Source: Pelagibius litoralis
GTDB lineage: Bacteria > Pseudomonadota > Alphaproteobacteria > Kiloniellales > Kiloniellaceae
Direction of reading: 5' to 3'
Assembly: GCF_011683915.1 (NCBI RefSeq)
Contig: NZ_JAAQPH010000029.1
Location: forward strand, 1 to 56,284
DNA: 56,284 bases
The notes below the pieces were generated by a model that made no database searches, was not told the origin of the DNA, and saw nothing but the letters and a program-made list of their open reading frames with translations. The first letter of the stretch is position 1. Each line of letters begins with the position of its first letter. The position numbers were made by a program, and so were the translations under genes. Below, one piece after another: positions 1 to 36,679 of this stretch.

Positions 1-196
1 CTGGGCCTTCACCCTCACCGCCACCGCCTGCAATCTTGTGCGAATACCAAAGCTCCTGGCCCAAACATGAGACCAACGCTCCACCAAAGCGCCGATCACC
101 CGGGATAGACCAGCACCCAAAACCACCCTCATAGGGGGCTGACCTCAAACCAAGGCCCAAAACCCTATACGTCAGACTTTTTCAGCAGCCTGCTAG
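1..196 (+). mobile_element. 3' end of an insertion sequence (IS5/IS1182-like)
   Basis: The window opens inside an insertion sequence. The last codons of a DDE-type transposase end at 70. About 110 bases of non-coding tail follow, and then the terminus TTTTTCAGCAGCCTGCTAG at 178-196. The same terminus, differing by one base, bounds the small element at 35696-35872, which supports this being the true IS end. The final CTAG (193-196) contains the TAG stop codon of the minus-strand glucosaminidase gene, so the element abuts that gene exactly. Family assignment rests only on the short transposase tail and is tentative. Confidence 0.7.
2..70 (+). CDS. transposase C-terminus (partial)
   Basis: Only the last 22 codons are inside the window, ending in TGA at 68-70. 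The tail reads WAFTLTATACNLVRIPKLLA followed by QT. This hydrophobic tail with an N-L-V/I-R-x-P-K-L-L core is, from memory, typical of the C-terminus of IS5/IS1182-type DDE transposases in alphaproteobacteria. The catalytic residues lie outside the window, so activity cannot be judged. Confidence 0.65.
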   Translation, partial: WAFTLTATACNLVRIPKLLAQT

Positions 197-35164: not shown

Positions 35165-35695
35165 ATGACCGCGATCTGCAGACCCGCGCCCGTCGGCCCG
35201 CCGCAGGCCCCCGAAGGCAACCCGCTTCCCGAAGCCCGGAACGCGCTGCTGTTCGATGCGGAACTGACCCCGCACCGCAGCCTGCCGCCGCGTGGCTTCC
35301 TGCTGCTCATGGCGGGGGTCAGCGCCATCAGTTTCGGCGCCGGGCTGCTGTTTTTCCTGATGGGCGCCTGGCCGGTGATCGGCTTCCTGGGCGCCGACGT
35401 GCTGCTGATCTTCCTTGCCTTCAAGATCAACTATCGCCGGGGCCGCCTGGCCGAACACCTGCAGCTCACCGCAGGGGACCTGACGGTCACCCGCGTCTGG
35501 CCGGGCGGGCGCAGCAAATCCTGGCAGTTCCAGACCGCCTGGCTGCAGATCCTGCTGGACGACCCGCCCAAGCATGACAGCCCGCTGGTCCTGCGCTCCC
35601 ACGGGCGCAGCCTGACCATCGGCAGCTTCCTGACCAAGGAGGAACGCGCCGACCTGGCCCGGGCGCTGCGCTCGGCCCTGGCCGAGGCGCGCTAG
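35165..35695 (+). CDS. DUF2244 membrane protein
   Basis: A 176-residue protein with the DUF2244 signature LLFDAELTPHRSLPPRGFLL, two adjacent membrane segments (about residues 44-63 and 66-86), and a C-terminal cytosolic domain with HLQLTAGDLTVTRVWPGG and SHGRSLTIGSFLTKEERADL. Function is unknown; the family is restricted mostly to alphaproteobacteria and is often near nth or dapB, as here. No strong ribosome site is seen before the ATG. Its TAG stop codon (35693-35695) is part of a CTAG that flanks the MITE. Confidence 0.85.
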   Translation: MTAICRPAPVGPPQAPEGNPLPEARNALLFDAELTPHRSLPPRGFLLLMAGVSAISFGAGLLFFLMGAWPVIGFLGADVLLIFLAFKINYRRGRLAEHLQLTAGDLTVTRVWPGGRSKSWQFQTAWLQILLDDPPKHDSPLVLRSHGRSLTIGSFLTKEERADLARALRSALAEAR

Positions 35696-35872
35696 CGGGC
35701 TGCTGAAAAAGGACGAAGGAGCCCTTGGCTATCCTTCGAGACAGCCCCTTGCGGGACTTCCTCAGGATGAGGTTTGTGTTTGAATTTCAATCAATTAGCC
35801 TCATGCTGAGGAGGCGCGAAGCGCCGTCTCGAAGCATGTCTGCGCCGCGTTCTCGGCTTTTTCAGCAGCCCG
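35696..35872. mobile_element. MITE-like element with IS-matching ends
   Basis: A 177-base non-coding element whose two ends are inverted copies of TTTTTCAGCAGCCCG. It is bracketed by CTAG on both sides (35692-35695 and 35873-35876), consistent with a 4-base target duplication. The right end matches the end of the IS at 178-196 with one difference, so that IS family could move it in trans. Inside are inverted arms (CTTCGAGACAGCCCCTTGCG near 35732 and a CTTCGAGACGGCG-type complement near 35830), the common alphaproteobacterial CCTCAGGATGAGG-type repeat. Confidence 0.8.
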
Positions 35873-36679
35873 CTAGATCCCCAGGACGTCGCGCATGGAA
35901 TAGAGGCCGGCGGGCTTGCCGCGGCCCCAGAGCGCGGCCTTGACCGCGCCCTTGGCGAAGACTTCGCGGCTGCTCGCCTTGTGGGTCAGCACGATCTGTT
36001 CACCCTCGGTCGCGAAGATCACCGAGTGCTCACCCGCCACATCGCCGCCGCGCAGGGTGGCAAAGCCGATCTCACCGCGCGGCCGGGCGCCGACCTGTCC
36101 TTCGCGGGCCTTGCGGGCGACGCTGTCCAGCGCCAGACCGCGCCCCTTGGCCGCCGCCTCGCCCAGCATCAGGGCGGTGCCCGAGGGCGCATCGACCTTG
36201 TGGCGGTGGTGCATCTCCAGCACCTCGATGTCGTAATCCGGGTCCAGGGCGCGGGCGACCTGTTCGACCACCATCTCCAGCAGATTGACCCCCAGGCTCA
36301 TGTTGGCGGCCTGCACCACCACGGTCTGGATCGCCGCCTTTTCGATCATCGCCTGGGTCTCGCTATCCAAGCCGGTGGTGCCGGCGACATAGACCACCTC
36401 GGCCTGGGCGGCCAGTTCGGCATGGCGGCGGGTGGCGGCCGGGGTGGTGAAGTCGATCACCGCATCGACCGCTGCGAAAAGCTCCACCGGATCGTCGCCG
36501 ACCATGATGCCGACCGGATCGGCGCCTGACAAAAGACCGAGATCCTGGCCGATGGCCGGGCTGCCGGGCAGGTCGCTGCCGCCGCCAATGACGCAGCCCT
36601 CGCTGGCGGCGATGGTCGCCAGGTTCATCCGGCCCATGCGCCCGCCGCAGCCGACGATACCGATTTTGAGGGGGTCCAT
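35873..36679 (-). CDS. dapB: 4-hydroxy-tetrahydrodipicolinate reductase
   Basis: A 268-residue enzyme of lysine and diaminopimelate synthesis that reduces hydroxy-tetrahydrodipicolinate with NAD(P)H. The nucleotide-binding fold starts KIGIVGCGGRMGRMNLATIA. FTTPAATRRHAELAAQAEVV, VYVAGTTGL and the substrate motif LEMHHRHKVDAPSGTALMLG, with its His-His and Lys, are intact. AAGGAG precedes the ATG at 36679; the upstream in-frame start is not needed. Its TAG stop codon lies inside the right-hand CTAG flank of the MITE. Confidence 0.96.
   Translation of the reverse strand: MDPLKIGIVGCGGRMGRMNLATIAASEGCVIGGGSDLPGSPAIGQDLGLLSGADPVGIMVGDDPVELFAAVDAVIDFTTPAATRRHAELAAQAEVVYVAGTTGLDSETQAMIEKAAIQTVVVQAANMSLGVNLLEMVVEQVARALDPDYDIEVLEMHHRHKVDAPSGTALMLGEAAAKGRGLALDSVARKAREGQVGARPRGEIGFATLRGGDVAGEHSVIFATEGEQIVLTHKASSREVFAKGAVKAALWGRGKPAGLYSMRDVLGI

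Follow-up and report, generated by a model that had tools for sequence, protein, structure and literature searches.

In the genome of Pelagibius litoralis, a short mobile element lies between two convergent genes, one encoding a DUF2244 protein and the other DapB, in such a position that the stop codon of each gene falls within the four bases, CTAG, bordering the element. This raises the question of how an element can enter so exact a place and leave both proteins whole, and of whether gene ends are a usual seat for elements of its kind. The window, meaning the whole stretch of 56,284 nucleotides that was analysed, is one entire contig of a draft genome of 6.03 Mb in 64 contigs; its relevant features are given in Table 1.

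Table 1. Features of the window at the contig start and at the DUF2244/dapB junction.
Feature	Position	Strand	Remarks
Right end of resident IS5-family insertion sequence (IS)	1..192	.	Terminal repeat preceded by the 3′ end of the transposase gene; lies at the contig end
CTAG flanking the IS right end	193..196	-	Stop of the minus-strand gene 193-1197
DUF2244 protein gene (PF10003)	35165..35695	+	176 aa
CTAG, left copy of target duplication	35692..35695	+	Contains the TAG stop of the DUF2244 gene
MITE	35696..35872	.	177 bp
Left terminal inverted repeat (TIR)	35696..35711	+	CGGGCTGCTGAAAAAG; matches the resident IS ends, CAGGCTGCTGAAAAAG, at 15 of 16 bases
MITE body	35731..35837	.	Two REP-like palindromes
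Right TIR	35857..35872	-	Perfect complement of the left TIR
CTAG, right copy of target duplication	35873..35876	-	Contains the TAG stop of dapB
dapB (DapB_N, DapB_C)	35873..36679	-	ATG start at 36679 inferred; ORF listed from 36730

The element and its resident relative

The arms of the element (35692-35711 and 35857-35876) are complementary at 20 of 20 positions, CTAG included, the TIR proper being a perfect repeat of 16 bp. The sole ORF of at least 60 aa that starts inside it is a 72-aa frame running out of the MITE, and it contains no transposase gene. On either side, the DUF2244 protein matches PF10003 (E 3.1e-44) and its gene stops at TAG 35693-35695, and DapB matches PF01113 and PF05173, with a minus-strand stop at TAG 35875-35873. 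The first-pass annotation had described a MITE bracketed by two CTAGs that hold these stops, and had claimed that removal of the element and one CTAG would leave a single palindrome ending both genes; both descriptions are borne out, the joined flanks reading GGCGCG-CTAG-ATCCCC. The terminal repeats and the duplicated YTAR target (below) identify the 177 bp element as a MITE of a known kind, related to the IS5 family.

Palindromes like those of the body are present elsewhere in the genome, without TIRs, as matches to the inner part of the element. The MITE bodies of the genus at L057, L069, L105, and L106 resemble REP doublets between IS ends, as though a REP pair had been taken up by an IS and had so become mobile.

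A search of the genome for the TIR with its CTAG, allowing up to two mismatches, returned 31 ends. Twenty-five are at contig ends, and they divide into 13 copies of one end of a single IS and 12 of its other end. A transposase gene begins in one of the two ends, and its 3′ part lies in the other. The assembly breaks at these places because the ends of a multi-copy IS sit there, and only its ends, at these 25 sites, were assembled, with no unbroken copy. One such end opens the window, and the minus-strand gene that stops at its flank is putatively glucosaminidase-like, by reading of the sequence. The C-terminal piece of the transposase matches PF13751, while the N-terminal piece alone gave no family match. 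In other genomes, two complete relatives that carry this TIR match the NCBIfam IS5 model NF033581 at 254 and 262 bits (cut-off 140). By these matches the resident element belongs to the IS5 family, with a predicted DDE transposase of the IS5 type, and it is presumably autonomous.

The transposase of a relative matches 1,703 of 72,556 plasmid records, the annotated ones among the best matches listed being mostly of the IS5 family. A scan of the phylum gave a match in three of 398 genomes, and the new loci were left out of the counts given here. Among the matches listed, elements bearing the terminal repeat CAGGCTGCTGAAAAA between CTAG flanks come from many bacterial phyla, and most of them measure 100-230 bp (L170-L286).

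The target and its duplication

The four bases flanking the 31 ends are CTAG in 20, TTAG in six, CTAA in four, and CTGG in one, so that 30 of 31 conform to YTAR, in a search whose CTAG-containing pattern itself leans towards CTAG. The earlier claim of an element targeting CTAG is refined accordingly: the target is YTAR, which holds a TAR stop on either strand. The MITE and the resident IS share the same 4 bp YTAR duplication.

That the four bases belong to the target is seen in a repeat that occurs uninterrupted at eight distinct places in the genome, as CAAACAG-TTAG-AGCAGAT. In copies filled by the IS, CAAACAG-TTAG borders the IS on one side and CTGCT-CTAA on the other. The comparison is between separate copies of the repeat, some empty and some filled, and not between two states of a single copy; TTAG in the empty repeats, with TTAG and CTAA flanking the filled ones, indicates that the four bases were present in the target and were duplicated. 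The 4 bp flanks are identical in 51 of 65 TIR pairs, which were selected by YTAR at both ends and therefore do not test YTAR itself. The duplication of four bases proposed in the first-pass annotation agrees with both results.

It could instead be supposed that both CTAGs belong to the element, which would insert without duplicating its target and would supply stops to gene ends in the right frame. CTAG being palindromic, the MITE in the window alone cannot discriminate between these readings, and its DUF2244 protein is slightly shorter than those of congeners, with a stop three to six codons earlier than in the six congeners read. Against this, the TTAGs to the left and right of the element have one and the same orientation at L067 and L211, the four bases are retained in the empty repeats, and a DUF971-like protein, followed directly at its stop by a MITE in P. 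litoralis, ends with the same residues (..GLSRDP) in eight of eight members of the genus. On the orientation of TTAG at the two loci and on the empty repeats, an element-borne CTAG without duplication was rejected, this origin being highly improbable. With duplication of YTAR, a stop that is entered is preserved, since the four bases hold a TAR stop on each strand.

Empty and filled sites in relatives

A DUF2244 match was found in 51 of 58 genomes, and 30 loci were read. By motif search dapB is close to the DUF2244 gene in 16 of the 30, the window included; by eye it seems to be near also in L036 and L042. No single shared CTAG was found at the other 15 junctions that were read, and the shared stop that preceded insertion at dapB/DUF2244 is deduced from the duplication. 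An empty site with overlapping stops, which had been predicted for this junction, was found at another one. In G005, a member of the genus, one TTAA ends both speE and a convergent SnoaL-like gene, with both frames intact up to TTAA. At the same spot G001 has TTAG-MITE-CTAG, where TTAG ends speE and CTAG ends the SnoaL-like gene, and the two proteins end at the same residues in both genomes. Insertion of a related MITE into a shared stop, the event proposed for the window, is therefore directly visible between G005 and G001.

In G002 there is also an element after the speE stop, with a decayed far end. The elements after speE in G002 (L353) and G001 (L350) have the same TIR variant (..GAAAGA) and different bodies, reflecting either two insertions or a body that was exchanged.

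Copies of the IS lie at the stops of putative ABC-permease-like and ArsC-like genes, so named by reading, at or near the points at which the congeners' genes end. These comparisons draw on seven congeners for the permease, some differing by a few residues, on three of seven for ArsC, and on one of five loci for the glucosaminidase-like gene.

Taken together, it is very probable that a MITE moved in trans inserted into a YTAR site, in this case a CTAG with which two convergent genes both ended, having landed there passively and survived. The resident IS5-family transposase would move the non-autonomous MITE, which would insert into the CTAG forming the overlapping stop of DUF2244 and dapB in the ancestral state. 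The staggered cut would duplicate the four bases, and each gene would retain its stop, leaving both proteins unchanged.

Elements at stop codons

CTAG is scarce in this genome, with 181 occurrences in 456,284 bases, the window among them, where base composition predicts 1,539; the window has 26, while dinucleotide shuffles average 69. Genes, called here and throughout with an in-house codon-usage script and not a published program, make up about 85 % of the sequence, yet contain only 42 of the 181, while 103 are intergenic and 36 are at stops. Two of the 36 are common to convergent genes, and three are element flanks in the window. Within the window itself, 12 of the 26 are at called stops and two are inside genes. 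CTAG was thus correctly described from the outset as scarce within genes and frequent at stops.

In P. litoralis, none of the 31 ends is inside a called gene and seven adjoin a stop. Set against 38 of 362 CTAG flanks at stops, this is not significant for this genome alone (p 0.07), nor is the five of 29 that remain without the window's MITE (p 0.35). Outside the genus, the excess of elements at stops is statistically clear. Among the matches listed in a scan of public genomes that required an exact CTAG, a gene ends at 28 of 122 element flanks, compared with 48 of 717 other CTAG flanks (p 2.8e-7); these derive from 129 TIR matches in 117 loci from many phyla, seven with short flanks having been dropped.

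The same excess is seen when elements are excised in silico and the sites rejoined. Of 65 pairs among the matches listed, eight with under 300 bases of flank were dropped, leaving 57 sites from 55 loci, 43 from named public loci and 14 from the genomes of P. litoralis, its genus, order, and class. There are 27 sites at stops, 25 intergenic, and five inside genes, whereas the 351 control CTAGs, taken from the named loci only, divide into 38, 179, and 134 (27/57 vs 38/351 at stops, odds ratio 7.4, p 7e-10). The named loci alone give 21 of 43 at stops (p 1.5e-8), and controls from the same loci give 19 of 141 (p 1.3e-6). Where flanks differ, a pair was scored as a stop if either copy gave one; a fixed single copy also yields 27 of 57. 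The excess is stable over four gene-calling thresholds, and at the middle setting pairs with identical flanks alone give 18 of 43. Some of the loci share an assembly, so the sites are not fully independent, and at L069 the left gene, by eye a putative short-chain dehydrogenase, was called on the joined flanks and not on the cut ones. Genes that end at an element have a Pfam match in 30 of 32 cases, none to a transposase family, and include those for 3-dehydroquinate synthase, a member of the dihydrodipicolinate synthetase family, CobU, and spermidine synthase.

Stops shared by convergent genes account for five of the 57 sites and two of the 351 controls among the matches listed. The window's genus contributes three of the five, among them the case from which the analysis started, and for the named loci alone the comparison is two of 43 with two of 351 (p 0.06).

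A transposase that actively prefers stops or gene 3′ ends, for example through terminator hairpins or local melting, might also produce such a distribution. Among the matches listed, 40 of the 52 non-genic sites have a gene 3′ end facing them at a distance of no more than 100 nt. In P. litoralis a REP-like double palindrome is a recurrent target of the IS, which inserts at YTAR sites both beside and between the hairpins (G000 contig ends, e.g. L078, L079, L083, and L100), and by eye 16 of the 31 ends lie within REP-like palindromes. When distance is matched (within 100 nt of a facing 3′ end, among the matches listed), however, the exact stop is not significantly preferred over nearby CTAGs (27:13 vs 38:34 in controls, p 0.16), and the loss of harmful insertions would be expected to give the same picture. 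Active preference is thus considered unlikely. The elements do gather at stops; nothing shows active choice of them, and the 'safe-site strategy' of the first-pass annotation exceeds the evidence in this respect.

Another possibility is that the element serves convergent genes as a bidirectional terminator and is retained for that role, its position at stops being selected. The region 35680-35890 folds more strongly than shuffled sequences (z -6.65), and 20 of the 57 sites among the matches listed are in a convergent context. Yet the region has a single terminator-like match, not above shuffles (0.4, sd 0.7), so a terminator role was rejected as a candidate, and the perfect TIRs and flanks look recent; selection as a terminator has a low probability, below that of active preference. 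A search of Rfam gave two matches, both below the family gathering scores.

Passive landing and survival are therefore presumed to lie behind the stop excess. In the simplest account, CTAGs near gene ends would be largely stops, CTAGs within genes would be few, and harmful insertions would be lost. Elements would accumulate where genes end, since few CTAGs lie within genes and many form C-TAG stops, at which insertion costs little.

A four-letter target that is also a stop signal on both strands would explain the harmless seat in last codons, and hints at why GC-rich genomes tolerate such elements where convergent genes lie close together. It also yields a testable prediction for every IS and MITE that targets YTAR. 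More tentatively, and with considerable doubt, YTAR specificity may be in effect a stop-codon safe harbour for IS5-type elements and their MITEs: since the four bases are duplicated on insertion, it would let them occupy the final codon of a single gene, or those of a convergent pair together, with no change of protein. It would thereby allow them to spread in compact GC-rich genomes, and the transposase may have kept that specificity for this reason.

Some features of this system have parallels elsewhere. In Brucella, IS711, an IS5-related IS, enters the palindromic Bru-RS repeats at a YTAR-like site. The terminal repeats of Escherichia coli IS5 are presumably different from those of the present family. 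Its duplication is the same Py-T-A-Pu (YTAR), CTAG being the commonest at 15 of 24 listed sites, and CTAG is under-represented in bacterial genomes; in the parts consulted, IS5 is discussed in relation to destabilised intergenic DNA and not stop codons (PMC5493358, PMC10359306). The 100-nt MITEPsy1 of Pseudomonas syringae, related to ISPsy2, is likewise a short element with TIRs like those of a resident IS and a 4-nt duplication, CTAG or YTAA, and differs in TIR sequence; its six copies comprise two that interrupt loci, two intergenic ones, and two in other transposons, and the sections consulted mention no placement at stop codons (PMC3189936). Among open-licence papers, no description of CTAG-targeting elements landing at stop codons was found. 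The element is therefore of a known kind, and the stop-codon pattern is the new part.
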